Source of the DNA: Rhizophagus irregularis
Lineage: Eukaryota; Glomeromycota; Glomeromycetes; Glomerales; Glomeraceae
Direction of reading: 5' to 3'
NCBI RefSeq assembly: GCF_026210795.1
Contig: NC_089433.1
Span: 4,985,001-5,049,000, forward strand
DNA length: 64,000 nucleotides
Part shown: one piece after another, positions 8,744 through 48,590 of the stretch
Layout of the letters: each line of letters opens with the position of its first letter
Numbering within the stretch: position 1 is the stretch's first letter
Made by a program: the position numbers and the translations under genes
The notes under the pieces: model-generated
What the model saw: only the letters and a program-made list of their open reading frames with translations
Told to the model about the DNA's origin: nothing
Databases searched by the model: none

Positions 8744-8951
8744 TATATAAAAGTGCAAAAAAATTTTATTAATAATAAACTATTTGATCATTATATATGT
8801 AACTAAAATTCCAAAAAAGGAATCTTGTATAATACAACTTAAATAAGCTTATGTAAATATTACATAAGCTTAGTAATATTTTTCAAAATGGATAAAAACG
8901 ATGTCAATCATGTAACACACAAAAATCACATATACGAAAAGAATTTAAATT

Positions 8952-23829: not shown

Positions 23830-25448
23830 TTAAACTATATTATTATCATCATTATAGTCATCATCGTTTTTGTCACCTAAAAGCTCTAAATTTTCATTAC
23901 GAATATTTAAATGTTTTTCATATCTTTTACGTGTTTTTCCTAACTCATTTAGATAATCACTATCAATATAATACTCTTTTAACAAAATTTCTAATACGGC
24001 TACTCTATCTTCAATTTTACCGTCTGGTGGCAGTTTACGTGGATCTTCTACTAATGGTATTCCTCCACGAGAGACGTATCTATTTGCTAAATATTTTTTT
24101 AACCTCCGACGAAGTGGCCAACAACTTAACAAGTGTGTTTGACAAATTCCCCTTAAAAAAATAAATAATAATAAATTGTTAATAATATTTTTTAAATACT
24201 TATTATAAAATATGTTAATAATTACCATGGAGAAAGTTTTGATGCTCCAAATAGTAAAACAAATATCCCGCTTATAACACTATAAAAACCACCAAAGTTT
24301 TCTATAAGTTTTTTAACTAAATAAAGAAGGAAAATTTATTATAAAAAATGAATAAATTAATATTCAAATACAAAAAAATTTTAATATTTAAAATTATTAA
24401 TTACCGTCATTTTTAAATGTCATAATATCATCATCAACTACGAACTTATATTTCTGTGACAATTCTAACACAGTGAAAGCATTCGGTATTTGTGCAAGTA
24501 TTTTTTCTTTAATTACAATATCCATTCTATCTCTACCTGCATCAAAACCAAGAAATCCAGTAAGATATGAAGAATAATATTTCATACTTTTGTAATAAAA
24601 ATCATACACATGATATTGTCCTGGAGTAATAAAGTATTGGTTAAGAATTAATTTCATCTCAATAATATCATTATACATCGTAATTTTGGTAAATGATTTA
24701 AAACTAATTTCGAAATAATCATAAATTGTCGAATTATCTAAATCAAGAACAAAGAGAAGTTTTTTATTAAATTTATGATTGACGTTTTCATTGTCAGGGG
24801 TAAATTTCATGCAACTATTAGTAACATTAGTAAAAAATTCGGTACTTCTAGGAATTGAATTATTGTTGTATAAATCGTTTATCATGTTTGGATAAAATTC
24901 CTTCATAGCTGTGAAATTAACAAAATAATTAATTTTAAAAAATCAATCGTCAAATTTTAATATCAATAAACTTACTTTTATTGTCATTATCTTTATCATA
25001 GAAAGAATAATTTTTAGGAATATACAATTGTGAACTTATTGCGTATAATTTGTATACCGATATTTTTAATGATGAATTGTTGTCGTAATTGTCTTTTATT
25101 ATGAAGTTAACAAGTATAATGAATACTACATCTTAAATAATGTTTTTTCGAAAAAAAAAAAAATGTTGCAAACTCTTACTTAAAGTTCTTGAACAAATTT
25201 CAAACTCTATTTAAAAGAAAAAAAAAGTTTAAGATTTTATATTATATATAATTTATTGGAAATTGTTAAATACCTGGATATGAAATTGTTATCAATTTTT
25301 TAGTATTAATTTCAGAAATGAATTCGCTAAATGAATTCCAACCATAATAAACAAGAACACATGAAAAGACAACAGCAATCAATAATCGCAATATGCTGAA
25401 AAATTTAGGTTCTGTTTTTTTAAAATGGAAAGATTCTAAAAAAAACAT
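23830..25448 (-). CDS. C1: two-membrane-segment protein of the C family
   Basis: Model: complement(join(23830..24151, 24226..24316, 24405..24908, 24976..25092, 25180..25206, 25274..25448)), 411 aa, all phases consistent. TM1 lies at about residues 20-42 (FSILRLLIAVVFSCVLVYYG), followed by ISYPEFEICSRTL. A presumed outer domain of about 230 residues contains ITPGQYHVYDF and YLTGFLGFDAG. TM2 at about 280-303 includes FGGFYS and FVLLFGASKLSPWG. The tail is basic (LRRRLKKYL), then SRGGIPLVEDP and DGKIEDRVAVLEILLKEYYID, and ends Asp/Asn-rich. Divergently paired with D1 across 475 bp. Function unknown. The two-TM, large-loop layout with a YPxFxIC motif after TM1 and a GAS motif in TM2 recalls DEG/ENaC channels, but that is only an analogy. 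Confidence 0.8.
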
Positions 25449-25923
25449 TTTTAATATGATAAAGTTTTGGTTCCTGACCCAGAAAATATATATAAAAGAG
25501 GTTCGAGTATGATCACGTAGATCTTTCCTGTTATCATAATTCCGGCCCTAAAAAATTATGTACCTTACCCCTGCATATCTCATATTTCTGGTCCTACTGA
25601 TCTACAAGAGAATATAGGTAGAGTATGATATGACCTACATGGTATGGTGCTAAAATTGGCAGGTATGATTATTATGTACAACAGAATGAATATTTTATAC
25701 AAGAACTTTAGTAGATCTTAATTAATTGGTGTTTTATTTTCGAAATTGTTCTTCAATTATCCTACAATTGTTATTTTGAATGAAACGTATACAAGTTAAA
25801 GATTTGTGTTGATACCATAATACTACCAAAGTTTCGTACTACTGTACCTTTACTTAATTAAGTGATTTAAACGTACATTAATAAATAGAATTTTTATCTT
25901 GCAAAAATAATTATATCCAAAAT
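25449..25923. promoter_or_regulatory. shared C1/D1 divergent spacer
   Basis: 475 bp between the two start codons. It contains 'tcaattatcctacaattg', the word 'ttattttgaatgaaa' found also ahead of D2, and a 'cataattccggcc' motif that recurs in the transposons here. No TATA or other core element can be assigned with confidence. Confidence 0.4.
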
Positions 25924-27446
25924 ATGCAGAAATTTTCTTTTTATTTTAATAACTTCAAAAAATATTTACTAATATTCCTGAAACATTTGCAGAATTTAGA
26001 GTTTTTATTTAATGCAATCATTTGTATAAATTCTCTGGTTGCCTTGATTGGAAATTTATTCGTTTGGACTAGTATTGCTAATATGGATTACTATTATAAA
26101 GGGGAAGATCTTGTTATTGTGTTTGACTTGTTTTCAATGTCAAGTTTAACGATTATATCAGGAGTTGTTACAGTAATTATAGTAAACTATTTCTTAAATA
26201 ATGTTAATAATGTTAACTTTTAAAATGATAATTTTATTTTATTGTATTTTATAGGCAACATTAAGAACTCACGATCATACAATAATATATTTTATCACGA
26301 ATGCAGCATACATTTTATATATATATTACGCATTATTTAACAATATAGATATTCCTGACTATAAGTGGATTATGTATTTACATATAACAATAATGTTACT
26401 TTTATTTATTGTATACATTCGGTTACATCGGAAAAGGTAATAAATTAATCTTTATACATTATAAAATTACTCGATAACCCTCTAAAATTCAATTCACGTA
26501 TTAGGGAAAGGGGTGACAAAGATAAAAGGAATGACGAAAATAAAGGAAACGACGAAGTTCCGAAAATTTCAAGTTAAATTTTCACATTTGTTATATTAAA
26601 ATTCTTCATATACTTTCCTAATTATTGTTTTTTGTATGTTTATATTAGAAATTTATAAGGGATATAATAGACAAAAAATTTTGTGTCATGCACAAATTTT
26701 AGTTGCTTTGTGTTCGCAATTTACTTATATAGCTTTAATGATAGAAGACGAAACTATTGTGGAAAATCCGTTTGATCTCTTGAGATATGTAACTTGGCCA
26801 AATGTCCTTTTATGTTTAATTGTTATAATGATGATTAAAGGAGTAAATAATTCAAATTTTTTTTACTTGTATTTTTTCTCAAAAAAAAAAAAAAAATGAA
26901 AAAAAGTAATTAATTATAATACTTATTTATTTAAGGTTCGCGAAGAATCAGGATGTATAATGCTCTTATTTTACATTGCTAGTTTTATTCTTTATGGATT
27001 TTATGTTTATATATCAATAGACGCAATTAAAGTATTAACTTCACAAGACTATTTAGATAACCCTGGATATATATTAGGTACTGTAAATGCGACAAAAATT
27101 GTAATACGGTATTTTACTTTCAAGAAATTTAAACTAATCGATTTTATTTATTTATTTATTTCACTTATAGAGAAAAAAATTGATCTTATTGTGAATATAA
27201 TTTCATTTTGTATAACAACAATTACAATGATAAACTCAATAATTTGCCATAAGAATTTCGGAGCGGAAAAAAAATTTAAAGATCATCGTAAGTAAAAAAA
27301 AAAAAATTTATTTTATTTAGAACTTACAAGAAGGATTTACCTATAATATTTATTATTTAGTTTTAAATGATGAACTGAAACATTTTAAGGAATCATATTA
27401 TTATAAAGATGATATTGATGAATATTATAATAGTAACAACCCTTGA
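25924..27446 (+). CDS. D1: polytopic membrane protein of the D family
   Basis: Model: join(25924..26181, 26255..26436, 26505..26572, 26649..26842, 26936..27077, 27171..27287, 27361..27446), 348 aa, all phases consistent. About eight hydrophobic segments: residues 26-48 (ending NLFVW), 63-90, 96-115, 124-143, then a charged loop (GDKDKRNDENKGND), then CHAQILVALCSQFTY, WPNVLLCLIVIMMIKG, MLLFYIASFILYGF and VNIISFCITTITM. The C-terminal tail is charged and Tyr-rich (ESYYYKDDIDEYY). The donor ending exon 5 is GTACTG; choosing it rather than the later GTATTT is what keeps exon 6 in frame in both D1 and D2. I do not recognise the family. The best-preserved D copy. Confidence 0.75.
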
Positions 27447-27894
27447 ATCATGTATCCTTTGTATAGTAGTATTACAGTGTTTATTTTTTTAAACATTGAA
27501 TTTTTTAAATGTTTTGAAGTAATTAATAATATTTTCAATAAAAAATTTATAAATAAATAGTAAATTTTATAAATGAAATAAATTCGTGAGAATAAAAAGT
27601 CGATAATTAATGAACTCTATTTATTACCTACCTATGTGTTTTGAGCATCAAAAATTGTAATAAAAGGTTCAAATTGGCATTATAAAGTTTTTTTTATATG
27701 GCAACTATGGCAACGCACATTTCTTTATTAGATATAAGTATAAATACATTATCTGACAAGAAATTCATAGTAGTATAAAAATACACTATCTACCATACCA
27801 TATTATGTATGGCTGTATTATGTACTAATATAGTATTCAATACCACTTTTGTTGCTCTATCTAAAAAAAAACTACTACTATTGTATTAATCATT
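27447..27894. other. intergenic
   Basis: 3' flank of D1. The word 'aaattcgtgagaat' near 27580 is shared with the 3' flanks of D2 and D3. Nothing else identified. Confidence 0.45.
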
Positions 27895-28206
27895 TTATTT
27901 TTCTTGTCCTTCTACCTTGTATCTGATTCTTCTGTTTCGACGTTTATACGCTTCTTGCCTTCTTTTATACCGTCGTTTTCCACTTCTTGTGTCTTTTAGT
28001 AACCTTGCTGGGCATTTAGCGTTAACTTCATGATGTTCTTTAAAATCTTCATTCAAGACCGACCGTTGGATTTGCTTTACCTTTTTTTTTCTAACCATTG
28101 TTTTTGCTAAAACCTTTATTGCGTCAAATTTAAGCTTTTCCCATTCTTTCATGAGAAGACAATCATCTATATTTTTTGCGTCTAAAACATGAAAATTTAT
28201 ATTCAT
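27895..28206 (-). CDS. small basic hypothetical protein
   Basis: A single-exon frame of 103 aa from ATG 28206. The first half has LMKEWEKLKFDAIKVLAK (amphipathic, helical). The second half is strongly basic: MVRKKKVKQIQR, then SGKRRYKRRQEAYKRRNRRI. It lies between D1 and the 3' end of C2 and is absent from the equivalent place in the other cassettes. Base composition is richer in G/C than the flanks, which favours coding or recent arrival. No family recognised. The basic tail could bind nucleic acid or be a nuclear signal, but it could also be a chance frame. Confidence 0.35.
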   Translation of the reverse strand: MNINFHVLDAKNIDDCLLMKEWEKLKFDAIKVLAKTMVRKKKVKQIQRSVLNEDFKEHHEVNAKCPARLLKDTRSGKRRYKRRQEAYKRRNRRIRYKVEGQEK

Positions 28207-28650
28207 AGCTTTCCTTCTTCAGTTCCACAAATATCAGATTAACGGGGCTTTATCCATTTCTTCTTTTTTTCCCTTCTTAAATCGTTGATGATAAGCATTA
28301 TCGTAATTTTTGATTAAGCAAATTTTTATAATGGAGAAACTAAGTTCATGATTCATGCGAATTAAAAACCAAACATTCCTTAGTATTTTTTTACTTTTCA
28401 TTATGATACATAAAAAATAATGAATTTTGTTTTCGATTAACCACAACGTAGTCAACCTATCCGAATAACCATTTCAATCGAAAGTACATAAATTAAAAAC
28501 AAATAATAATTTCCTGATTAAGGTAGTTTTATAAGAAATATTGTTAAATAATAAAAGTTAAGCCTAAGCCTTTTTTGTTAACCGCAAAAAAAGAAAAAAG
28601 AAATAATACAAAAGAAATTTGATCAAATTTTAACTCCTTATAAACTTATA

Positions 28651-30250
28651 TCATGCATTTTCGTCTCCTAATACTCTTATATATTTGTTACGTGTTTTTC
28701 TTAACTCATCTAGATAACAATCATCAATATAATATTCTTTTAACAAATTTTCTAATATAGCTACTCTATCTTCGATTCTACCATTCTCTGGTAGATTACA
28801 TGGATCTTCTACTAATGGTATTCCTGCACGAGAAACATATCTACTTGCCAAACTTTTTTTAAATCTCCGACGACATGGCCAACAACGTAACAAGTGTGTT
28901 TGACAAATTCCCCTTAAAATAAATATAATAAAATTATTTATTAATATCATTTTAAATGCATTAAAATATTTTTTATATTTACCATGGAGAAAGTTTTGAA
29001 GCGCCAAATAGTAAAACAAATATTCCGCTTATAGCACTATAAAAACCACCAAAATTTTCTATAAGTTTTATAACTAAAAAGAGAAGAGGAAAATTAATTT
29101 TAAAATTATTCAAATGCAAAATTAATATGTAAATTATAATTACCATTATTTTTGAATGTCATAATATCATCATTAACTATGAAATCATAATAATGTGACA
29201 ATTCTAACACAGTATTCACAGTATTAAAAGTATTCGGTATTTGAGCAAGTACGTTATCTTCAATTACAATATTCATATCATCATCATCTGCATCGAAACC
29301 AAAAAGACCAAAAATAGGTTTAGAATAATATTTCGTATTTTTGTAATTAAAAGTATAATTGTAATATCGTCCTGGAGTAAGAAAGTGCTTGCTAAACCCT
29401 AATTTCAATTTCATCTGTTTTTTAGGACTTAATTCCACCTTCGCCTCATTAAAGTCAAAATTTGTCGCAGTGTAAAATGATTCAAAACCAATTTCGAAGT
29501 AATCATAAATTGAAAAATTATCCAAAGTAATAACAAAGAGAAGAGGGTGCCGTTTATAATAGGGATGTTTGACGAATTCATTTCGAGGAATAAATTCCAT
29601 ACAACGATGATTAAGTTGATTAACATAAATGGAAAAATCGGTTCTTTTAGGAATTAAACTATTGTTGTATAAATAATTTATCATGTTCGGATAAAATTTG
29701 GGCATCCCTGTCGCTGTGAAATTAACAAAATAATTAATTTTTAAAAATCGATCGTTATATTTTAATATCGATAAACTTACGTTCATAATTGAAATCTACA
29801 TAGGAAGACTCATTAGCGAAATACACTTGAAAATCTAAGTCATTATAATATAATTTGTATAATGATATTCCTAATGTAGAATTATTGTCGGAATCGCCTT
29901 TCATTATGAAATTGATAAATATATTTAATATTAATTTATATTATAACTTTAAAATAATATTTTTAATCTCTTACTTAAAGTTCTTAGGCAAATATTAAAC
30001 TCTATTTTTTAAAAAAAAAGTCAATTAAGGCTTAAAGATTTTTACATTATATATAATATAAAAATTAGATACCTGGATATGTAATAAACATGAAATTTTC
30101 AGTATTAATTTCGGAAATGAATTCGTCAAATGAAATCCAAATATAATAACCAAGAGCAACTGAAAAGAAAAGCGCAGTCAACAATCGTAATATGCTGAAA
30201 AATTTAGGTTCTGTTTTTCGAAAACTTTGGTAAGATTCTAAGAGAAACAT
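28651..30250 (-). CDS. C2: two-membrane-segment protein of the C family
   Basis: Model: complement(join(28651..28912, 28983..29073, 29144..29713, 29781..29897, 29975..30001, 30073..30250)), 414 aa, intact. Exon lengths 91, 117 and 27 match C1 exactly. TM1 lies near residues 20-42, then ITYPEFNICLRTL. The outer domain is about 20 residues longer than in C1 (exon 4 of 570 nt) and retains ITL(D)NFSIYDYFEIGF, LTPGRYYNYTF and GLFGFDADDD. TM2 has the same FGGFYS...LLFGASKLSPWG string. The tail is shorter (GRIEDRVAILENLLKEYYID, ending GDENA) and has two extra Cys (CWPCRRR). Paired divergently with D2. Confidence 0.8.
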
Positions 30251-31031
30251 TTTTATTATAGAGTTTAGTACGACTCAGCTATTTTATAGTCCAATCCTAA
30301 TTCTTGTCCGCTGATCAGCAGTTGAATTTTTTTTTTTTGGTAGCACGTATTTGTCGATCATCCTACAATGGTTATTTTAAATGATCTGTATTAGTAAGTA
30401 GCTGCATTAAAATATACAGTTATTGCATATTAAGGAAATTAGGAAATTTCTGAAATTTCTGCAAAAATAGTCAAATATTAAAGTACATTTTAACCGTAAA
30501 GAATATGGATAGTATTTCTAATTACTTTTATGAAATCAAGAGCAATCTACTTCTAAATTTGAGTTCCATAGAGATATTATTTTGTGTCGTCATTCTCGCA
30601 ATAGACGAACTCACTTTTGCTAGGTTCCTTGTGCTATTTTATAACTCTGTCCACTGATCTGCAGTTGATTTTTTTTTTGGTAACACGTATTCTGTAACAA
30701 ACCATATATGTAAAAAAAAAATAAAAATAATTGAGGTTTATTTTCGAAAATGTATGTCGATTATCCTAAAATGATTATTTTGAATGAAATCTTTTACGCC
30801 ATCAAAGCTGTACTACCAGTACAAAATGATTATCAAAATCATAGTTACTATTGGCTAATTTGTTATGTTTAATTATAGATTTTAGGATTTATAACCATGC
30901 TTAACTGCAGTTACTGCATAAATAAGGAAGTTTCTGAAAAATAGCCAATTAAAAATAAACCCACAAAACTTAAAGTACATTCTTAACCGTATAGTAACTA
31001 AAAAAAAAAAAATTTATCCCTCGAAATAAAA
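30251..31031. promoter_or_regulatory. shared C2/D2 divergent spacer, internally duplicated
   Basis: 781 bp. It holds two versions of the same stretch: 'ttttttggtagcacgtatt' (about 30335) and 'ttttttggtaacacgtatt' (about 30673). Each is followed by 'tcctaaaatgattatttt'-type words, a 'ttctgaaa' word and 'taaagtacat...taaccgta'. The first version leads into a D exon 1 fragment, the second into functional D2. The same T-run + agcacgtatt word also occurs beside C3. Confidence 0.5.
30505..30630 (+). pseudogene. fragment of a D-family exon 1
   Basis: ATG 30505 begins MDSISNYFYEIKSNLLL, then SSIEILFCVVILA, which matches the D2 opening MKKISQYFDGLKKNLFL, then SSIENLFCVVLLA. Similarity is lost after about 35 codons (DELTFARFLV), before the TM1 end. 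No later D exon follows before the true D2 start. It is a truncated D copy left by a local duplication of spacer plus exon 1. Confidence 0.75.
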
Positions 31032-32480
31032 ATGAAGAAAATTTCTCAGTATTTTGATGGGCTCAAGAAGAATCTCTTTCTATATTTAAGTTCCATAGAG
31101 AATTTATTTTGTGTCGTCCTTCTTGCATATTCTATTGTTGCCTTGATTGAAAACATTTTCGTTTGGATTAGTTCAAGAGATTTTATAAATTCTCTAGACT
31201 GTTTTTTTAATTCAGTTTTAGTGATTATATCTGGAATTATTACGGTAATTATAGTGAGTTCCTTTTAAAATTATGTTCTAATTTTAAAATAATGTTATTT
31301 CTTGTATTTTTATAGGCAACATTCAGAACTCTTAACCATATATTAATAAATTTTATCGTGAATGTTACACTCATTCTATATACGTATTACCTCTATTATT
31401 ATAATGTAAAAATTTCCGGCTCTATAACGTTTATAGTTTTACAAGCAATATTTCTGTTACTTATTTTGCTTATAGTTATTATTTGGTTACGTCGAAAAAG
31501 GTAAATAAAATTAATAAACATTCTATATATAAAATTATTTAAACAAGAATCCTAACATGTAAAATCTAATTAGTACATTTAAGAAAAGTTTATTTGCGAA
31601 CAAAGAAATGGATACCGAAAATACCAAAATTAAAGGTTAAATTTTTAATATATATAATTTTAATTGAAGTTAAATTTTCTATATACTTTCTAAAATATCA
31701 ATATACTTGATAGAAATCTATAAATGGTATCATTTGCAACTAACTTTGTGTCACGCACAGATTTTAGTTGCTATACTTTCGCAGTTTACTTATATGAATA
31801 TAATGATATCAATAATATACGGTAGTAACGTGGGAAGTCCGTTTGATCTCTTGAAGTATATACCTTGGCCAAGTGTCCTTTTATGTATAATTGCTCTAAT
31901 AATGATTAAAGGGGTAACTAATTTAAACTTTTTTTTTTTAAAAAAAAAGGAATTAATTATCTATCATATTTGTTTATTTGCAGGTTCGCGAAGAATCAAA
32001 ATGTAAAATGATCATATTTTACATTGCTAATTTTACGCTCTATATATACTATATTTGTGTATTAATAATAGAAATTAATATATTAACTTCACAAACTTCA
32101 CAAGGAAACTCTGAATATATTATATTTATATTAGGTACTGTAAATATGACGAAAATTGTCATATGGTATTTTACTTTAGAAATTAAATAACCGAATTTAT
32201 TTATCTACAGAAAGAAAAATTGATATTGTTTTGGTCATAATTTCAATTTTTATAACAACATTTACAATAATAAATTCAATAATTTGCCATAAGAATTTTG
32301 GACAAGACTTAAAAGATTATCGTAAGTAAAAAATTTTTTTTCTTTTTTATAAATTTTAAAAGAAAAATTTTATCAACTAAAATAATATGTATTGTTTTAG
32401 TATTAAAGGAAGAACTGAAACCATTTAGGGAATCATATGATTATAAAGATGATCTTGATGATTATCACGAACGAACGTAA
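31032..32480 (+). CDS. D2: polytopic membrane protein of the D family
   Basis: Model: join(31032..31253, 31316..31500, 31574..31635, 31714..31913, 31984..32134, 32211..32321, 32401..32480), 336 aa, all phases consistent. Same eight-segment plan as D1: NLFLYLSSIENLFCVVLLA, ISGIITVII, CHAQILVAILSQFTY, WPSVLLCIIALIMIKG, a membrane exon after VREES, and a charged tail (FRESYDYKDDLDDYHERT). Exon 3 needs the acceptor at 31571-31573 (tag); the site homologous to D3 is shifted by one base and would break the frame. Exon 5 uses the same GTACTG donor as D1. Its 3' flank (32605-32690) is nearly identical to that of D3. Confidence 0.72.
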
Positions 32481-33264
32481 CGACTCTTGAAACAAATAAC
32501 TTATTTATCAGCACATTTTTTTTTAACGTTAAATTTTTTAAATTTTTAAATTAATAATTACAATATGTTTTATATATATATATATATATACACTACATAT
32601 TTTTTATGAAATGAAATGTATTCGTGAGAATTATTCTTTATTCACGCGAAAATTTTCAAAATGTTACACAAATAAATAATCGACAAAGCTTTTATTTTAT
32701 TACCTTTACGAAACAGAAGCTACCTCGCAGTAAGAGCTGAAAATTATCGGATAAAGGGATTTTTCTATAAAAAAGGCAAAAAATAAAAAATAAATTAAAA
32801 CTAAGATATGAGGAAGTTTAATTTTTTATATCAACCACAGCCAGATTGATCCTTCTTGTCTTCCTTTGATGCCTTTTGATCCTTTTGTTCTTACTACCTG
32901 TATCCTTATTTTTTTGATATATTCTGAGCAGTAAAATCGTCAACAGAATCTTATCCAGTTTATTTATAATAAATGTCTACACTCTCAATATTTGCATTCA
33001 CGTGATTTACATTATAGGTTTTGAACTATACAAATGAAATGTTACTTTTTCTATACATATATATATATATTAATATATATAAAGCTCATTCTGTTAAACA
33101 TTATTTTTACTAGTATGGCGCAGTAAAAGACATTCTTATTATTTAACACCGTTTAACAATAAACACAAGTGCGGATATCTTTCACCTTTTTTTGACACTC
33201 CATACCTAATAGTATAAACGTATGGTAAAGGTTTCGGTCTTTAATAGAAATATACAGCCTTATT
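32481..33264. other. intergenic; D2 3' flank
   Basis: Contains the D-family 3' flank (32605-32690: 'gaaatgtattcgtgagaa', 'ttcacgcgaaaattttcaaa'), a TA run near 32570-32592 and another near 33055-33080. No gene recognised. Confidence 0.45.
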
Positions 33265-34860
33265 TTGAGGACAAAGTTTAATATACAACAAAAAACATTT
33301 TTTACATATATCACTTTCCAAAGAGTTTTTTTTACTTTTCTGCGTTCATATTTTATCCTTTATTTTACAATACTGGTTTTTTTTAACCTTTATTATATAA
33401 ATTTCAATATTATACTCTTTCTTACATATACAATATGTCCTTTTCAAAACCAATTTCCTATCCTCCCGCAAAAAATTCGGTCTCCTTGAAAAAATTTCAC
33501 GTGATTATCAAAAAGTGTTACCACGACAAATACAACAAAAATAAAAATTCTTAATTCAAGACAATATTCTACAAACTGTAACAACAAAACCACAAAAACC
33601 TTTTTTAACTTCACATACAAACGATACCGGTTTTATTTCGGAATTTTCATTCCATGTAATCATGAATATACGGATACACTACAAATGTCTCGTACGTGTA
33701 CTGTACCGAGCCCTTTCATCATGTCACATGACCGACGCGCTTGCGTCCAGCATCAAAAAAATTTTTTGCGTTACATACGTTCAATAACTTCCACCCAAGC
33801 TCCAATCTAACGACAAAGTATCTCATGCTAACCTGCTTTGTCAACTAGTGGCTAATGAACCTACGAAAGAAGTTTATTCTTCAGATATATGGCCAGATAT
33901 CAAGCCAATGACCTCAATTCTTCTTCAATCACGACAAGAAATATATTTATCACAAAAAATATGCAAAGTTTCGTCATGACTACAGTTTAAACCCTCGTAC
34001 TGCAGAAAGACAACGCGCCCGTTTTCAACAGCATTGTGCTCGCATCATCCATTCCGCTCAATCTAGGACTAAAGATCCAGAGAATATGGACTTAGCTAGC
34101 TTCCAAACTGGCTATCGTCAGACGATATAGATTTTTATTTTTGTTATCACAAGTCTTTAATAGACTAATTAAACATTTACGATATCGAAAACTTGATCAA
34201 TCCCCTAATGAAGCTAATTATAAGTTTTCTTTACCAACAACTTCATTCAGTCACCCAGTCTTTAATTACTTTTCAACAACCCCTGACACACCGTCTAAAC
34301 CGCAACCTCCGGTTTCGACTTATGATCAAATTCCTTTACAAACAACTTCTACTACACCCACAACTCCTAATTATACCCATGGATTTAATTTCCTATACCA
34401 GATATACTGGTGCCTTTTCTACCTCAAATGCCTCTTCATTATCACCGAAGTAGTGGGAAACATATTCCCCTCGAACTAGGCAGCCGACGATGGTTTGATG
34501 AACTTTATAACATCAAAAAACGCCATGATGCAAAAGAAAAAGATAAACAACGCGCTCTCGTAAAACAGAATCAAGCCAAGATGTTGGGTACATCTACCAA
34601 CAAGTTAGAACAACGCGTTGATTTAACGCGCGACCTCACAAAATTCTAAGACAAACATATGACGTTGTTCTCTGAACGTCGTACTAGGTTAGGAAATAAA
34701 AACTTAACGATACAAATCGACACATCAATACCGCGAAAGTGGAAAAATTGGAATCTGAATTTAAACAATTTCAAACTTAACTACTTCTCAGTCATCAGTC
34801 GTAACCAACTACACTACAATAACAAAGGTGATCCTCGTACGACACCAAAGGTTTAGAATC
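33265..34860 (+). other. unidentified degenerate coding-like block, GC-richer than flanks
   Basis: Several short overlapping frames with non-AT-biased codon use lie in a row. Recognisable protein-like stretches are FRHDYSLNPRTAERQRARFQ (33968-34027), DLASFQTGYRQTI, a Pro/Thr-rich part (TTSTTPTTPNYTHG) and a charged helix (SRRWFDELYNIKKRHDAKEK). Together they look like an old coding unit, perhaps transposon-derived or captured, now broken into several frames. I do not recognise the family and propose no function. Its 5' limit is vague; base composition changes near 33640 and again after 34870. Confidence 0.35.
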
Positions 34861-35254
34861 TCCTCCACGCATTTGAAGTAATGAAAGCAGTCGAAGGACG
34901 GGGTTTTTTATCTGGATGAATCAACCTGTGTGAGTCCAGGTTGTGATTGTTATCAACATTTCTTTTGAGTGAAATGACCACTACATCATTAACATTTTTA
35001 CCAATTTAGAATAGTGTGAACCATTCCATTTATTACAGTATTGACAAGTGGTGGATGCATAGCAATAAACAGATTATGTACCTCAATTAAATAGAAAAAT
35101 TTGAACTCATTAAAAGCTAAAGTCATTCCATTATATATGATGTTAAATTTATATACTGTATTTATATAGTTTTAATTAAAAATCAAGTTTATTGCAAAAT
35201 AATATAAAACTGTTATTTAAAATAAATGACAAAATGAATTCAGTTATTTAGACT

Positions 35255-35488
35255 AGGACCCCGAACAATATATAAATAGGTCATAGGAAATTGGCAAAAA
35301 TTTACTATTAGCTCCACGCATTTTTTCAGGGCCGGAATTATGATAATGTCAGTCAGTTACTAAATAAAGTAATATATTTCTTACCAACGTTATCAAAATT
35401 TATCTAAAAAAGGAAAGATTTTCATGATTATTTTAGCCTATTCTACGCGTTATTTCTTGTTACCTATTTCAGTATTGCTCGGGGTCCT
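35255..35488. mobile_element. 234-bp MITE with 8-bp target duplication
   Basis: The ends are AGGACCCCGAACAATA and, reverse complemented, AGGACCCCGAGCAATA. The direct repeat tttagact lies on both sides (35247-35254 and 35489-35496). There is no gene inside, and one 'ggccggaattatgat' motif. The size and 8-bp duplication suit a hAT-type MITE. It sits 3' of kinase gene B. Confidence 0.85.
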
Positions 35489-35586
35489 TTTAGACTACTA
35501 ATAATAAAAAACATGTAAAATAATATAAAGGATTTCACATGACATATCTAACTTTTTTTTTTCAGGTATTTAAACACTAAGTATTT

Positions 35587-37940
35587 TTATATATCTTCTG
35601 GAATTTCTAATTCCTCTTGATCTTCTGAATGAAAATTTGGATTATTTGAAATATCGTCATCTTCCATAACTGGTATAACATAAAAGTTATTAATAGAAAA
35701 GTATAAAAAAAATTTACAACATTAAAATCTTACCATTATTATTTGTAACATAATTCATTTGTGAGTATTGGAATTTACCTTAAAATATATTTTTGGAATA
35801 AATATTAATTATTATAGAAAGTCAATAGGAATATATTTTGCATTTTACATTATATGTTAATTACCTTTATTCTCACTTAATTTTATTTTTTTAGATTTAA
35901 TTATATCTTCTTTTTTCTCGTCTGCTTGAAATAATAGAAAAAATATTTTAATATAATTATAATTAATTAAAAAAGTTTTAATATAGAATTATTTAATACC
36001 ATCAAAATAAATTCTTTTAGATTTACTATTATCTGGCTCTACAAAACATAAAATTAGTTTTAAAATACAAAAGTATCATAAACATCATATTTTATTGATA
36101 ATCTTACTGATTATTGTCAAGTCATATTGTCCAATTTGATGTTCAGTTCTTTTAAATACAAAATCTTCAATTTCTAAATAAAAAAATATTTACAAAATAA
36201 ATAAAATAAATTCAATCTTTAATTATTTAATATGTAAATTATTCCTTACCACTCGGAATACTTAAGTTATGTTGTATACTTTGATATTCTAGCGATATAA
36301 ACAATTTAATAAATTTTTAGAATGCATAAAAGTTTTTTAAATAAATATTAAGATATGCAGTACCTTTTTGTTCTAGTATAAAATTATTATAGTTTATAAA
36401 ACAGCAATTTAATTAAATATAATTAACAAACGATTAAATGAATAAATATATTCAAATACATTAATTAATTTACCTTCAGCACTAGCATTTCTTGGAACAG
36501 GTAAATTTTCAAAAATATGGACTTTACTAAGACTTTCAACTAATGAATTAACAGAGCTAGAATCTGTATAATAATTTGTTATGCATACTTCATTATTTAT
36601 CTGCTGTTCATCATTTTCGTTTTGATGATATAGTCTTTTCATTTTTTCGATTTCATTTAAAAGGTAATCAATTTTAGGTCTTTTTACTGGATCAGCATCC
36701 CAGCATTGTTCCATTAATATTCTATATTCATATGGAGTTCTTGGAATTATTTTTGGTCTCATTCCATTTATTATCCGCAATGCTAAGTCACAATCATGTT
36801 CCAAATTAATGAAAGGTGGTTGACCAGATGAAATTTCCCACATTAGCATTGCAATACTATAAATATCAGATGCAAAAGTGGTTTCTTTATTAGCAATAAC
36901 CTCTGGCGCTATATAAGGCAGATTTCCATATATACCATTTAATGGTTTATTAGCTGGTCCACAAAATCCAAGATCACTAATGTAGAATGCTCTAATTTCT
37001 GTAGATAATAATATATTTTTAGAATGCAAATCCCTATGAATTGCATTTTCATTATGAATTCTATAAAGTGCTTCAATTATATTTGACATAATGTTAATTC
37101 TTTCTTTCCAGTTAAGTTTATGAAAATTTTGTTGTAAATATTTTCTTAAATCCATATCCATTTGTTTCATTACAAGCATATAATTTCCATCTGATGGATC
37201 TTTTGTTAACCCGTAACATTGCACTATACTCGACCATTTGTTGGTTATAGATAAATGAGATTTACACTAAAAAAAATAAATAAATAAATATCTTTAATTA
37301 TATAAATTCTTATTTCAATCATGAATATAACATATTTTTATTTATTATATACCTCATCAAACCAACTTCTATTAGCACTTTCAACATTTTCTAATTTTTT
37401 AAGTATCACTTTAAGCATTCCATATCTTTTTAATCGTTGTTTTTTATTATCCCAATCATGGTAAGCTCCATCAATCCAATTTGCCGTATAAATTTCAGAA
37501 TATCCACCTTCAGTTAAATATTTAATATTTTGTAAGTTATCATATGAAATCCATTCCACTATATTGTATGGAGCATATGAATCTATTTGACAATTTTGTA
37601 TTAGATCATCAATGTTAGTATTTCCAGACGCCCAATTTGAAAAATTTTTTTTTAAATGATTCCGAATACAATATTCACAATATGATTTAGCTAAACATTC
37701 TTGGTTACAATTTTCACAAATTCTTTTTGTTCCCCTATTAAAAAGAACTTTGTCATTATCAAATTTAATATTTAATAAACATATTAATACTGATTTTTCA
37801 TTTTTTGTAAGAAATTTATCGGCAAGAATAATTTGTTTTTTAAATTCATATCGTTTTTCTAAAGTATTGTAAATATTATGATCCACCAATGCATACACTC
37901 TATTGTATACAGAAGCAATTAATTCGCTAATATCAGTCAT
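35587..37940 (-). CDS. kinase gene B: Cys-cluster + TKL kinase + microexon tail
   Basis: Model: complement(join(35587..35669, 35734..35778, 35865..35924, 36000..36038, 36108..36173, 36250..36288, 36364..36372, 36474..37266, 37353..37940)), 573 aa, intact. Order: MTDISELI start, Cys cluster (CENCNQECLAKSYCEYC), WISYDNLQ, Gly loop TEGGYSEIY, VILKK, HRDLHSKN, DLGFCGP, YIAPEV, SSGQPPF, CWDADPVKRP. The kinase core is complete except DLG instead of DFG and HSKN at the asparagine loop. A tail built from seven small exons follows, one only 9 nt long; it is charged, with KSKR/KSKK basic patches (possible nuclear signals) and ends in an acidic EDQEELEIPEDI. Exon 1 is 588 nt in both A and B. A Ser/Thr or dual-specificity signalling kinase is expected; its target is unknown. 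Confidence 0.85.
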
Positions 37941-39944
37941 ATTAAATTGTTTAGTACTAATAGTATAATAATAGCATGTGAGCTCAATTGAAATGAAAGG
38001 ATTTTTAAGGATTGAGCCTTTATTTATAATTCTTTCGACTCATAAGTCATTGATTATTTTATTGCCAAACATGGAAGGCAAATACATCATAATACCGAGT
38101 ATATCGTATTCGGCAACAAATTTGCCGTATATTATGAAACGAATAAATCTCTGTAGTCGGTAAATTTTAGCCGTAAGATCTGCAAATCGTTCGTTAATTC
38201 GATTTTTCTATAGTACGATTTACAAATATAGTACTAAGATATACTATATGATTATTAAAATTAGTAATTAAGGAATTGCAAAACTTAGTATGTAGTATAA
38301 TAATACTAGGATTCTAGGAAACGAAAATTGCCGATATACATTGTCACGTACTATACAATTATTATGCATACCGTACGTTGTAAGACTGGGGTCGGTGATC
38401 TTACGTAAATATTCCTTTATTTAATAAAATAAAATATTAATTTACACGATTATCTCCCACTATTGGGGGAAATAAATAATAACATTTGTTCAAAAATTAA
38501 AATATTCATAAAATAAAAATAAATGAAAAATCATCTATTGATAATTTCCCACAAACTTTAATATATTAAATTTGATTCCAAAGTTCAAAATCGATTGTTG
38601 TTATTTTCCGCAGGCCTAAGAAAATATCTTGGTAAATTTTCATAAAGTATTTCCTTATGAATAAGTCTATCTTTTATTACTGCAACATAATTATTTCATC
38701 ATTTGTGATCGATAATTCGGTATACGTAATTCCGAATAATTATTTAAGTTGATAATCATAATAATTTTCCATAAAAGTGTCCCGCAGTGATAAATATTAC
38801 ATCATCGTTTCCATTTCATCAATCATTATTTCCTTAAGTAATATAATCATAAAAAATAAAATTAAAAAGCAACATGAAACGTTACATAATGAGTCAGTTT
38901 ATATTCGTGATCCAGGAGATTTTCAACAAATAATATTTTTGATATTTTTATACACTTATAATAAATATAAGACTATTTCTATTTGTACACTACGTGTGTA
39001 AACAAGAGTCACGTGATTATTGTCATTTTCCGGTGATCTGCATAAAAAATCCTAATTTGGAAATTTGTGTAACGCAATTTCATTTTTACTGAGAAACAAA
39101 ATTTCCTTTTTTGGGTTGTGTAACGTTACTCTACTTTCCAAAATTGGAAATTACAGTAATTTTTGGCTGGAATTATTGGAATTATAAAATTTGGCCGAAA
39201 TTATGGTGTGTGTCATATAATATGTGACAAATAAGGTTTTTCCTACCGAAAAAATTCTCTGTCCCTAGAATAAATAGTAAAAATGGAAAACTATAGGGTG
39301 TGACATGGGTGACAAATTATAGTCACGTGATACGTGTTTCGCACATTAAGAAATTATCTAAATATAATACTGCGTCTTTAACTTATAGATAAAAAATTTA
39401 TCCGCAATTAGTAAGCGAACAATTTTATTCTAATAAATAACATTACATTATTCTAGATACTTAAACACCTTCATATACTTTCATTTCCTAAATTTTTAAT
39501 AAAAAATATTTTATATTCAAAAATCATCCGATAATTTTAATTATAAATAAGGTTTACAGTTAGTAATAATATGATTTGTGAATAAAAAGATCTTAGCTTT
39601 CAAATTTTTAAAAATTACATTACAAAAATCTATGACAAACGAAAATAACTACTATAATAAAATAAATAATCGTAATTATTAACTAAAACAATTTATTACT
39701 TTTTCATGTGATATATAATAGTCGGTAATGAATTTTTCTTTCGATTAAAGATGATTTTATTGTCGAATTTGATTGATTTGATCACAACGTAATCATACAT
39801 ATCCAATCATAAAGGACATAATTTTATAAAATACAAATAATTAAAGTTATATAAATTGAAAATAATTAATAATTTCCTAATTAAGGGGTCTGCACAAAAA
39901 GAAAAAAGAAATAATATGATACAAAAAAAAAGTTAGAAATTATA
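37941..39944. other. intergenic with a relic of the long-TIR family
   Basis: No gene supported. Around 39005-39240 the words 'gtcacgtgattattg', 'ggaaatttgtgtaacg', 'aaaatttccttttttgg' and 'tggctggaattattgg' match pieces of the long-inverted-repeat element at 19116-20543, so this is probably an old partial copy. Short frames at 37978-38163 and 38777-39001 look accidental. Confidence 0.5.
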
Positions 39945-41528
39945 TCATGCAATTTCGTCTCCTGATATTCTTAAATATTTTTCACGTGTTTTTCTTAACT
40001 CAACTAGATAATAATCATCAATATAATACTCTTTTAACAAAATTTCTAATATAGCTACTCTATCTTCGATTCTACCATTCTCTGGTAGATTACATGGATC
40101 TTCTACTAATGGTATTCCTACACGAGAAACATATCTATTCGCCAAACTTTCTTTAAATCTCTGACGACATGGCCAACAACGTAACAAGTAAATTTGACAA
40201 ATTCCCCTTAGAAAAAATATGATAAATTGTTAAGATTTTTTCAATATTATTTCAAATAATTTTTAAATATTTACCATGGAGAAAGTTTTGAAGCGCCAAA
40301 TAGAAAAACAAATATTCCGCTTATAGCACCATAAAAACCACCAAAATTTTCTATAAGTTTTTTAACTAAAAAAGAGAAGAGGAAAATTAATTATTAAATA
40401 TGAATAAGGTTAATATTCAATTATGAAAAATACGAAATTAATATATAAAATTACTAGATACCGTTATTTTTAGAAAAATTAATATCTTCTTTAATTATAA
40501 AATTATAGTCAAAAGAGATTTCTAATACGGTATTGAAAGTATTCGGTATTTGAGCAAGTACGCCATGTGAAATTACAATACTCATATAATTTTTATCTGC
40601 ATCAAAACCAAGAAATCCAGAAAGTTGTGAAGAATATCGATTCGTATTTTTGTAATAAATATTATAAATATTATATTTTCCTGGAGTAATAAAGTATGGG
40701 TTAGGATTTAATTTCATCTCAGTATCATTTTTCTTAAATGATTGAAAATTAATTTCGAAGTAATCATAAATTGACGAATTATCCACAGTAATAATAAAGA
40801 GAAGTGTATTAAATATTTTCAATTGTCGTTTTCCATTAAAATAATTAATTGTTCTGTAGTATTCATCGTTAGGAGTAAATTTCATACAACGATTATCGAG
40901 ATCGTCATTAACAAAAAATTCGGAGCTTTTAGGAATCGAATTATTGATGTATAAATAGTTTGACATGTATGGATAAAATTTCGTCATAGCTATGAAATTA
41001 ACAAATAATTAATTTTTAAAAAATCAATCGTCGAATATTAATATCAATAAACTTACTTTTATTGTCATTATCTTTATCATAGAAAGAATAATTTTCAGGA
41101 ATATACTTTTGTGTTTTATTTAATTTGTATAATTTGTATAACGATATTCTTAATATTGAATTATTGTCGTAATCACCTTTCAATTATGAAATTGATAAGT
41201 ATATTAAAATTAATTATATTACGCCTTAAAAAAATATTTTTTAGAAATCTTACTTAAAGTTCTTTGGCAAATACTAAAATCTATTTAAAAAAAAAAAGTT
41301 TAATTAAAAATTTAAAGATTTTACATAATATATAATGTAAAATTAGTTACTTGGATATGTAAAAGTTATAGAATCTTCAGTCTTAATTTCGGAAACGAAT
41401 TCGTAAAATGAAAACAAAATATAATAACCAAGAGCACATGAAAAGAAAAGAGCAATCAACAATCGTAATATGCTGAAAAATTTAGGTTCTGTTTTTCGAA
41501 AAAGACAACAAGATTCGAAAAGAAACAT
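39945..41528 (-). CDS. C3: two-membrane-segment protein of the C family
   Basis: Model: complement(join(39945..40206, 40275..40365, 40462..40989, 41057..41176, 41254..41280, 41351..41528)), 401 aa, intact. TM1 (FSILRLLIALFFSCALGYYI) is followed by FTYPNFSICQRTL. The outer domain has YIPENYSFYDKDND (almost identical to C1), DNSSIYDYFEINF, ITPGKYNIYNI, QLSGFLGFDADKN and LAQIPNTFNTVLE. TM2 has FGGFYGAISGIFVFLFGASKLSPWG. The tail is closest to C2 (CWPCRQRFKESLANRYVSR, GRIEDRVAILEILLKEYYID). C3 mixes C1-like exon 3 with C2-like ends, which suggests gene conversion or an intermediate age. Paired divergently with D3. Confidence 0.8.
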
Positions 41529-42760
41529 TTTTGTTATTATAGAGTTTTAATACGACTAAGGTTTCTTTTTAATCTTAATGAAATTTTTTTTTTTTGTAGC
41601 ACGTATTATTAAATAATTAACTAGATTAGGTTTATATGTAGCGAATTCATCGTCAGACTATTATAAATTATTAGGTTTTATTAATATCAGCAATCTTGAA
41701 CAATAATAAGTAAGTAAAATCCACCATTCTAAATAATCTTGATTGAATATTTGATGATATTGGTTAGCAATAATAGTCTACACTTAATCCATTATAACCA
41801 TTCATTTCGAGCTAAATATAGTAAAACAATTCATTAGTAATTAATAATAAATTAGTTAATTCATTAAACAATAATTTCGTCATTTATCAAATTGCCACGT
41901 AAACTATTCATTTCGAGATAAGTGTTCTGATCAAAGTTCTTATTTAGCTAGATAAATTAAATAAGTAATAATTACGTCACTTACTAAAGCTTCAAGTCTA
42001 AACCTAAAATAGAGGATAATAATAAAAAAGGTTTAATAAATAGAACATTGTCACCTTACTCGTACTGTTCTGTTTTTGATCGGTACCTTCCATTTCTGAA
42101 ATAGCAAGTAAAGAAACGGAGTTTCCGAAGTTTTAAGTCCAAACCTAAAATAGCAATGAAGAAAAAAATGGGTCGATTAGTAGAATAAAATATTCCATAG
42201 TAATTCAAATAAGAAAATGTAATGTGTGATTTGTAATAATAATAATAATAATAAAGGAACGTAATTAATAATAGATAATACGTAAAAAAGATGTAATATT
42301 TTTATTATATTTATTTATAATTTCAGATCTATCGATTTTAAGGATAGTCTATTTTCTAATTAGCCTAATTTAGCGGAATCTTATCATAATTTGTTAATAC
42401 CGATCATCCAATTTTTTTGCTGAATTAGCCCAATTCCCATTAGTCAGCAAGCGATCGGCTACCACAACCTAACCTTTGATACGTAAAAAAACCCTTACAG
42501 TCCCCCCCTCAGAATACAGATTACTACAATTTGGTAAACATATATAAGAATACACTAAAAAACCCATTTCAAGGTAACACAGATCTTTGATAGATCCATC
42601 CTTTATTATATTGTGAAATCTTTTACGCCATCAAAGCTTTTGTACTACTGATACAAAATGATTATATTAAAATATGCTGTTGCTGTATATTAAGAAAAGT
42701 TCTGCAAAAATAGTCAGATAAAGTTTATCCCACAAAAGAAAATTATCCTACGAAATAAAC
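41529..42760. promoter_or_regulatory. shared C3/D3 divergent spacer, enlarged
   Basis: 1232 bp, the longest of the three spacers. The C3-proximal part keeps a T run and 'gtagcacgtattat'. The D3-proximal part (about 42598-42760) keeps 'gtgaaatcttttacgccatcaa' and the leader seen before D2. The middle (about 41600-42590) is unrelated to the other spacers and probably inserted. It contains a repeated 'cctaaaatag' phrase and an (ata)n run near 42236-42256. No gene in it. Confidence 0.4.
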
Positions 42761-44126
42761 ATGAATGATTTCCGTAAATTCAAGAATAATTTCCTTCCAA
42801 ATTTAAGTCTCATAGAGACTTTGTTTTGTGTCATCATTCTTGCAAATTCTATTGTTGCCTTGATTGAAACCATTGATGTTTGGATTAGAAAAGATTTTAT
42901 AAGGGTAGCTGTTATAGATTCTCTAGTCTTTTTTTTTTATTCAGTTATAGTTATTACATCTGGAATTATTACGGTAATTATAGTGAGTTCCTTTTAAAAT
43001 TATGTTCTAATTTTAAAATAATGTTATCTCTTGTATTTTTATAGGCAACATTCAGAACTCTTAATCATATATTAATATATTTTATCGTGAATGTTATATT
43101 CATTCTAAAAACGTATTACGGCTATTTTCTTACAAAATTTTCCAGATCTATTGCGTTTATAGTTTTAAAAGCAATATTTCTGTTACTTATTTTGCTTGTA
43201 GTTATTATTTGGTTATGTCGAGAGAGGTAAATAAAATTAATAAATATTCTAACATTGACTAACTACATATAAAATTATTTAAACAAGAATCCTAACATGT
43301 AAAATCTAATTACATTTAGGAAAAGTTTATTTGTGATTGTCAATTCGAACAGAATAATGAATACCGAAATTAAAGGTTAAATTTTTCATATATATATATA
43401 TATTAATTTAAGTTGAATTTTTCTATATACTTTCTAAAATATCAATATACTTAATAGAAATCTATAAATGGTATCATTTGCAATTAACTTCGTGTCACTT
43501 ACAGATTTTAGTTGCTATGTTTTCGGAGTTTACTTATATATCTCTATTGGTAAGAAAATATGGTTATGACGTGGAAAATCCGTTGGAAATCTTGAAGTAT
43601 TTACCTTGGCCAAATATCCTTTCATGTATAATTGCACTAATAATGATTAAAGGGGTAACTAATTTAAACTTTTTTTTTTTTAAAAAAAAAGGAATTAATT
43701 GTCATATTTGTTTATTTACAGGTTCGTGAAGAATCAAACCGTATAATGATTGTTACTTATCTTTTTAGATTAATTCTTTATGTATATTATATTTATGTAA
43801 TAATAAAAGTATCTAAAGAAATATCTGTTAATCCTAATAACGCAAGAAGGATAATTGATATTGTTTAGAGCATAATTTCAATTTTTCTAATAACAATTAC
43901 AATGATAAATTCAATAATTTGTCATAATAAGTTTGGAAAAGGCTTAAAAGATTATCGTAAGTAAAAAACAAATTTTTTTTTATAGATTTTAAAAAAAAAA
44001 ATTTTATCAATTACTACAATTACTAAAATAATTTGTATTATTTTAGTATTAAAAGAAGAACTGGAACCATTTAAGGAATCATATTATTATAAAGATGATC
44101 TTGATGATTATTATGAACGAACGTAA
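42761..44126 (+). pseudogene. D3: D-family membrane protein with one nonsense codon
   Basis: Exons 42761..42982, 43045..43226, 43320..43375, 43458..43654 and 43722.. join in phase and give the first 267 residues, ending at TAG (43866-43868). After the stop the homologous frame continues to a normal donor at 43964 and a final exon 44047..44126 (EPFKESYYYKDDLDDYYERT) that is almost the same as in D2. The intron between exons 5 and 6 of D1/D2 is missing, with part of the preceding coding sequence. If translated, it would lack the last membrane segment and the charged tail. Either a young pseudogene or a shortened variant. Its 3' flank matches that of D2. Confidence 0.7.
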
Positions 44127-46974: not shown

Positions 46975-48590
46975 ATGAATTTTATTAATGAAAACGAAGT
47001 AGTAACTAAATTTAATGAATTAAATATTTCCAATAAAAATCCAAATTCATCAAAAATTAATCATGAAAATTGTTATGACCCAGATAATTTTAAATTTTGG
47101 GGTAAATAATGTATTCCTCGTTGTATAATTGAAGGATGGACCAGTGGAAATGATGATATTGATAATTTTATGAAGGATACGATCTATAATGCAAGTACTT
47201 ACTATTATAAGGGTTATTATCCGTCATTTCTTGAATGGGTTCCATTTGATAGATTTGAAGATATGAAACAAATAGGTGAAGGTGGATTTGCAAAAGTGTA
47301 TTCTGCAACTTGGATTGATGGTATAGCAAAATACATTAAAGATGATGGAAATTGGATAAAAAAAGAACCTAAATCTATGATAGTTGCCTTGAAAAGGCTA
47401 AATGGATTACAGAATATGTCAACTGATTTTTTAAATGAGGTATTTTTTTCACATGTACAGTACTTATTTATAATTTTAAAAACTGTTAAAATATATTTAA
47501 TTTATTTTAATTTGGATAATAGCTTAAAACGCATTGGAAATTAAGTTGTTTACATAGTAATTCTTTAAAATTTTATGGAATAACTAAAGATCCAGAAACT
47601 GAAGAAATTATAATGATTATGCAATTTGCAAATGATGGAAATTTGAGAAATATTCTTTCAAGTAATTTTAACAAAATTTTATGGAGAGAGAAAATTAAAT
47701 ATTTATATTGGTCAGCAATGGACCTTAAATATTTACATGAATTGGGATATTTTCATAGAGATTTTCATAGTGGAAATATATTAAGAATTGAAGGAAGTTC
47801 TTATATATCAGATTTTGGATTATCCGGACCATCAAATAAACAAAAATCAGATAATAAAATATATGGTGTGTTGCCATATATTGCTCCAGAAGTTTTAAAT
47901 GGAGAACCATATACATTATCTTCAGATATCTATAGTTTTGGTGTAGTTATGGTTGAATTATCATCTGGAAAACCACCTTTTCATAAAAGAAAACATGAAA
48001 ATGGCTTAGCATTAGAAATATGTAATGGACTCAGACCAGAATTTGGAAAAGGAACTCCTGAAATTTATAAGAAATTAGCTCATAGATGTATGAATGCTAA
48101 TCCAAATCAAAGACCAACAGCCAATGAATTATATGAAATATTAGAATGTTGGTATAATTATAATGATAATGAAAAATATGGATATAAAGGAGAAGTAGTT
48201 AAAGCTGTATTTAAAGAAGCTGATAAAGAAATACCAAATATTTCAACCTCATATGAAAAGAAACCTGATACTATTTGAGCATTTACATTCAGTAATTTGT
48301 CAAAACCCATTAATTCATCTTTTATTGCTACTACATTTCTTAATGAAGAAGATAATGAAGGTATTACATTTTACTATATTATATTTTTAAATTTTATAAA
48401 ATAATTAAGATAATGATTAATTTTATTTATTATGATAGATTGTCAAGATTCTCAATTAGTTAACTTAGAGGTTCCTAGTTAGGAGGTAAATATAATCTAC
48501 TATATATTTAGGATATTAATTTTATGATGTAAAATAATAATGTAATGTTTTATTATTTAACAGATGATGATAATGATGACTAAATATATT
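46975..48590 (+). CDS. kinase gene E: complete TKL kinase domain, nonsense codon on each side
   Basis: The intact part is join(47170..47439, 47523..48278), 341 aa. It has Gly loop GEGGFAKVY (36-44), VALK lysine K75, HRDFHSGN (168-175), a canonical DFG (187-189), YIAPEVL, DIYSFGVVMVELSSG and the C-lobe end RCMNANPNQRP. All catalytic residues are present, unlike the DLG kinases A and B. Upstream, ATG 46975 is in the same frame but meets TAA at 47107 (after FKFWGK). The text after it (CIPRCIIEGWTSGNDDIDNF) is normal family sequence. Downstream, TGA at 48276 is followed in frame by AFTFSNLSKPINSS and, in a further exon, DCQDSQLVNLEVPS, the usual family tail. So both ends are cut by nonsense codons while the core is untouched. 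It could still make a minimal kinase from ATG 47170. Confidence 0.75.

Follow-up and report, generated by a model that had tools for sequence, protein, structure and literature searches.

An expanded head-to-head pair of two membrane protein gene families in Rhizophagus irregularis

NALCN or Cch1 channels act together with Mid1-like subunits, in fungi as in animals. In plants, NLR immune receptors are encoded by head-to-head gene pairs whose products act together and diversify. Channels of the DEG/ENaC family are recognized by a motif such as FPAVTIC after the first transmembrane segment (TM1), a Gly-Gly pair in TM2, a G-x-S selectivity filter and an N-terminal His-Gly (HG) gating motif. Here we describe two families of membrane protein genes, C and D, that lie head-to-head in three cassettes within a 64,000-nucleotide stretch of the R. 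irregularis genome (the window; positions 4985001–5049000 of contig C5 in a 146.7-Mb, 32-contig genome). As in NALCN or Cch1 with Mid1-like subunits, a channel may here depend on a second conserved protein; however, the families differ and the former are not known to be organized in head-to-head arrays, whereas C and D occur in many head-to-head copies. The cassettes share with paired plant NLRs a divergent, diversifying gene arrangement and, presumably, products acting jointly, but NLR proteins are cytosolic and unrelated to the membrane proteins C and D. C resembles DEG/ENaC channels (Pfam ASC, PF00858; FaNaC, 7yvb; ENaC alpha, 6wth) in that two TMs flank a large predicted outside domain, and differs from them in having an eight-TM gene neighbour. 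A survey of eukaryotes that included Fungi reports DEG/ENaC candidates in holozoans and, beyond these, in a single alveolate and a single stramenopile only (PMC10507113). We found no description of such a paired system in the open-access literature searched, a restriction that makes this weak evidence.

Gene models for all three cassettes were generated using a purpose-written spliced protein-to-DNA aligner. C1–C3 and D1–D3 denote genes of the window; C5, C8, C10, C12, C28 and similar labels elsewhere denote contigs. In all three cassettes, C on the minus strand faces D on the plus strand head-to-head, at the coordinates and on the strands given by the original prediction. Spliced alignment yielded six exons with intron phases 1,1,1,1,2 for C1, C2 and C3, and seven exons with phases 0,2,1,0,1,1 for D1 and D2. 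The exon plan previously proposed for every cassette thus held for these five genes but not for D3, which aligned with six exons. As had been claimed, three C and two D genes were free of breaks: according to the spliced models and a check of the coding sequences (CDS), the frames of C1, C2, C3, D1 and D2 were open, and D3 alone contained a stop. The features are as follows.

23830–25448, minus: C1, two-TM protein, six exons, without stop or frameshift (spliced alignment, CDS check)
25448–25274, 25206–25180 and 25092–24976, minus: C1 exons 1–3 (spliced alignment)
24908–24405, 24316–24226 and 24151 to the stop at 23830, minus: C1 exons 4–6 (spliced alignment and end of the open reading frame, ORF)
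25449–25923, no strand: C1/D1 head-to-head spacer, 475 bp between modelled starts; candidate bidirectional promoter
25924–27446, plus: D1, multi-TM protein, seven exons, frame open (spliced model, CDS check)
28651–30250, minus: C2, six exons, 414 residues, frame open, stop TGA; modelled part 30250–28654
30251–31031, no strand: C2/D2 spacer, 781 bp
30505–30600, plus: remnant of a D first exon in the C2/D2 spacer, 32 residues
31032–32480, plus: D2, seven exons, 331 residues, eight TMs called, frame open
39945–41528, minus: C3, six exons, 401 residues, frame open, stop TGA; modelled part 41528–39948
41529–42760, no strand: C3/D3 spacer, 1232 bp
42761–44126, plus: D3, aligns with six exons; one in-frame TAG in TM8

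The aligned model of C1 stops at 23884 in an open frame, and its 3' end at 23830 was taken from the ORF listing. The sequence 3' of the last modelled codon of D1 is AACCCTTGA. The aligner split exon 4 of C2 once; we modelled it as a single open exon, 29713–29144. D3 has apparently lost its fifth intron, and a short GT..TTTAG reading that spans its stop, noticed by eye, is possible. The C3/D3 spacer also contains a dispersed repeat (approximately 41723–42615) with matches on contigs C1, C2, C4, C5, C10, C11, C16, C23 and C24.

We then searched the genome for further copies; all genome-wide C and D counts are lower bounds, among the matches listed. A DNA search with the third window pair identified pairs of identical arrangement on three further contigs, C28, C10 and C1. 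Their spliced models had nearly identical exon plans and contained no stops or frameshifts; the aligner placed an extra intron in the C genes of contigs C28 and C1, and the later introns of the D genes of contigs C10 and C1 deviated. When two close D proteins were used as genome queries, the matches listed comprised six close members and one exon-1 fragment, that in the C2/D2 spacer. The C search listed at least 69 matches, many of them at further places. A D profile was run on ORFs from 20 loci that contain distant C relatives; in seven loci it matched on the divergent side (E-values 4e-8 to 0.003). A distant D template, built by hand from locus L020, scored 154–804 in the D regions of L017, L018, L019 (two regions), L022, L023, L024, L025 and L030, and 2.6 in one region adjoining a C fragment. 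In a four-quadrant chance control at 16 C loci, a distant D template scored above 100 in nine of the 16 upstream-opposite regions (one being its own locus), while scores in the remaining three quadrants (48 regions) reached no more than 87.2. This highest score, obtained upstream of C30a, proved to be a false match to an F-box ORF.

Two distant D proteins, used likewise as genome queries, recovered at least 14 loci of one group and at least six of another. In total, the genome contains at least 28 D loci (six close, eight C12-like and 14 of the C8 cluster), and all 28 face a C-family gene head-to-head at a distance of 141–1598 bp. The D genes of L017 and L025 came to light only through inspection of the flanks of C, and the unbiased pairing count is therefore 26 of 26, from the whole-genome D searches; the assignment of C23:2695674 rests on a single stretch of ~100 residues. 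Paralogue arrays are present on contigs C8 and C12, and D proteins of different groups share 21–27% identity. The three occurrences originally predicted were thus far too few, there being at least 28 head-to-head pairs and a further degraded pair, likewise divergent, in L010. D sequences without a C partner were short exon-1 fragments only (window 30505–30600, C12:3212437–3212520 and C12:3217616–3217720). In this genome, every D found beyond fragment size adjoined a C, but not every C adjoined a D. Overall, an expanded head-to-head pair of two membrane protein families without a family match is well supported.

To compare the histories of the two families, C and D trees were built from 19 pairs and their congruence was tested using 2000 permutations. 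Tree distances correlated with r 0.903, a value reached in none of the 2000 permutations (maximum 0.48). The trees had 10 of 16 splits in common, against two or fewer in the permutations; several splits were poorly supported. Within groups, r was 0.90 (p 0.0125), 0.99 (p 0.0069) and 0.36 (p 0.28). Because the C and D trees mirror each other, the data are most simply explained by a pair that arose once and was then copied as a unit.

C and D have kept their frames while changing rapidly. Using the NG86 (Nei–Gojobori) method, the ratio of nonsynonymous to synonymous rates (dN/dS) was 0.86–1.04 among the four closest C copies and 0.49–0.76 against two deeper ones; for D, it was 0.73–1.75 in recent copies and 0.50–0.85 in deeper comparisons. 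Transition-weighted values were 1.25 for four C copies, 0.98 for six C copies and 1.13 for three D copies. Calibrated against introns, the corresponding ratio (omega) was 1.03 (0.86–1.24) for C and 1.07 (0.89–1.29) for D. By region, it was 1.08 (0.88–1.35) in the C ectodomain, 0.60 (0.33–1.67) in C TM2 and 1.18–1.24 in D exons 1–2, where bootstrap intervals included 1. In C TM2, the nonsynonymous rate was 0.23 of the intron-based rate and the synonymous rate was also low (0.38). No significant positive selection was detected in close copies, the omega intervals including 1.

Insertions and deletions (indels) occurred at 0.047 events per aligned bp in introns versus 0.0095 and 0.0098 in the CDS of C and D, respectively, a difference of about five-fold; CDS indels are multiples of three by construction of the model. 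Frames were open in all six close C copies and in five of the six close D copies, and frameshift marks were present in five of 11 automated, uncurated models of distant D genes. As CDS indels are rare relative to those of introns and dN/dS is close to 1, frames appear to be kept while most residues change almost freely. In our reading, fast change on a kept protein fits the open frames and a dN/dS of ~1 better than neglect does. The proposal that selection has probably kept these genes is supported by frames held despite frequent intron indels, but not by the dN/dS of recent copies.

The C protein is predicted to begin with a short N-terminus, in which an [ST]EP motif precedes TM1, and to continue with an outside domain, a Gly-rich TM2 and a tail of ~85 residues. 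Hydropathy analysis called TM1 in all six close copies and both TMs in four; only one was called in C2 and C3, whose Gly-rich TM2 was missed. Each of the six copies has 6–9 N-glycosylation sequons, all between the membrane segments, and the TM2 motif GG......GIF..LFG is common to a sample of the C superfamily. D has up to eight TMs. Its ends and its middle loop are rich in lysine and arginine, and several groups carry an acidic tail. Between five and eight TMs were called across D, with all eight in D2 only; the predicted combination of a two-TM C and an eight-TM D was accordingly recovered in part, fewer segments being called elsewhere. A possible internal 4+4 TM repeat in D was in the expected register, with a P of only 0.032. 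Complex I subunit 10/J, the best PDB match to D (E 0.025), faded to 8.8 with a wider profile and was rejected.

The sequence matches to DEG/ENaC channels come wholly from C relatives without a D, and all are sub-threshold. Profile A4 of the C relatives retrieved FaNaC first (E 0.095) and ENaC alpha second (1.2) from the PDB; with the trimmed profile A7, FaNaC was again first (0.072) and ENaC alpha third of three (0.98). The TM2 stretch of the C relatives (PSLTLADLFSNIGGYLSIW) aligns with TM2 of both channels. ASC matched five of seven C relatives: the best match (E 0.017, two stretches) involved the TM1/post-TM1 part of the profile (18–100), and two other relatives matched at TM2 (416–442). 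The best score was 14.6 bits, which does not reach the curated cut-off of 23.6. The strongest DEG/ENaC-like signal came from intronless relatives of ~400 residues with an extra N-terminal hydrophobic segment (L031, L033 and L035–L040); L031 and L033, the two whose flanks were checked, had no D neighbour. In C itself, YPxFx[IV]C and GGFY resemble the post-TM1 and TM2 motifs by eye only.

We propose that each cassette encodes both halves of one membrane complex, expressed from a shared head-to-head control region. Both termini of C would be cytosolic, the N-terminus being short; its large outside domain would be glycosylated and its second membrane helix rich in Gly. Most likely, C would be a subunit resembling a cation channel, gated by a ligand or by contact and distantly related to DEG/ENaC. 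D would be an eight-TM partner with both ends inside, on which C would depend for its production, placement or gating. Together they would form a single inherited unit that has diversified, in at least 28 copies, into a sensor repertoire, for example for chemicals or for self and non-self hyphae. That two families lacking an assignment have stayed side by side at 28 loci suggests that they function as a unit. The original suggestion that the two products work together is consistent with the divergent arrangement in 28 of 28 cases, the congruent trees, the kept frames and the channel-like C; it is at odds with a dN/dS of ~1 and the lone C relatives. We consider joint action of C and D moderately supported and a sensory or recognition role tentative. 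For the proposal as a whole, we estimate a probability of about 0.45.

A number of observations weigh against this proposal. Recent copies of both families have a dN/dS near 1, the outcome named beforehand as contradicting the original prediction, and D3 probably encodes a truncated or broken product. No recognizable D was present at seven of the 16 C loci of the quadrant control (three at C30, two at C13, and C6 and C9b), beside C17:1125535, where C is itself degraded by three frameshifts and two stops, or within the 2.4 kb scanned at each of C8:4788k and C8:4734k. Fifteen of the C places entered in a recount had no D partner, and many weaker C relatives lay outside the neighbour check. Tree congruence was not significant in one of the three groups and reflects joint duplication, which by itself is no proof that the products meet.

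With respect to the proteins, no credible family was found for D in Pfam or PDB searches, wider alignments included, or for C in Pfam, the PDB or, using C sample A6 only, NCBIfam. The best single-member Pfam matches were to unrelated families below their cut-offs: MetallophosN (0.0025) in one of six C proteins and, among the C relatives, LPG synthase TM (0.0007) and prefoldin (0.0086). Because such families outscore ASC in single members, the DEG/ENaC match is a lead and not proof. PF00858 matched neither C itself nor the six-frame translated genome, neither the profile of the window C genes (A1) nor the wide one (A6) retrieved a DEG/ENaC protein, and FaNaC ranked sixth of six (E 0.87) when a single C relative was searched against the PDB. 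The post-TM1 stretch of FaNaC scored only 1.0–1.5 bits with the C-relative profiles. In all six C copies, G-[IV]-F occupies, as judged by eye, the place aligned with the G-x-S filter, and [ST]EP precedes TM1, where no HG motif was found; in place of a Cys-rich ectodomain, A1 has two invariant ectodomain Cys. An AlphaFold2 model of C exon 4, the largest contiguous exon, in the three window copies was unusable (predicted local distance difference test score, pLDDT, 32.5). As four defining features are absent, we do not file C as a DEG/ENaC protein but regard it as possibly working alike; its designation as a DEG/ENaC-like channel is tentative.

An alternative that we consider possible, if doubtful, is that C and D are co-inherited only through their proximity, perhaps sharing a promoter, and serve the same occasion without forming a complex. 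Spacing is short throughout, both genes would be copied together whenever a 4-kb block is duplicated, and linkage alone predicts congruent C and D trees. However, D still adjoins C in groups that are only 21–27% identical, and among the matches listed in whole-genome D searches the only lone D sequences were short exon fragments. Linkage without need is disfavoured because lone D genes would be expected over such time.

It is unlikely that C and D serve recognition or conflict, such as hyphal self/non-self discrimination or a killer/antidote pair, in which diversification is the purpose. Kept frames at a dN/dS of ~1, the omega values of D exons 1–2 and of the C ectodomain, and the arrays on contigs C8 and C12 agree with such a role, but positive selection was not significant and no toxin-like or immune-like domain was found. 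Least probable is that most copies are duplicates in decay, derived from blocks that spread through a genome rich in repeats and that persist by chance: the dN/dS of recent copies, the D3 stop, the degraded C at C17:1125535, the degraded pair in L010 and the frameshift marks in distant D models would fit, but the open frames of close copies and the scarcity of CDS indels relative to intron indels do not.

Several other genes were observed around the cassettes. Protein kinase-like genes occur in the window at 17494–18930 (minus), 36409–38039 (minus) and 47110–48278 (plus), and kinase matches were also present in L009, L011, L014, L018 and L042. The first two window genes share 67% identity over 221 residues and may have been duplicated along with the cassettes. 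Four tandem ORFs at 6993–8779 (minus) have common WIPY-type motifs and by eye resemble N-terminal parts of the nearby kinases. Two P-loop ATPase-like ORFs lie at 14271–14969 (minus) and 55737–56198 (plus), with the motifs GPPNSGKTT and GEKGIGKTT, respectively.

Each D predicts its C, which makes the pairing easy to test, and the paired families open environmental sensing in such fungi to experiment. Should the relation to DEG/ENaC be true, the known spread of that channel family changes. In a more specific version, which we regard as speculative, the cassettes would be obligate two-gene sensors with shared promoters, copied as whole pairs, in which a DEG/ENaC-derived subunit with a fast-changing ectodomain and a new eight-TM partner sense plants, soil or other hyphae. 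They would then extend into the fungi a channel family whose members are, in the survey, confined almost entirely to animals and their relatives (PMC10507113). Such a sensor repertoire, if true, would perhaps be general to arbuscular mycorrhizal fungi.

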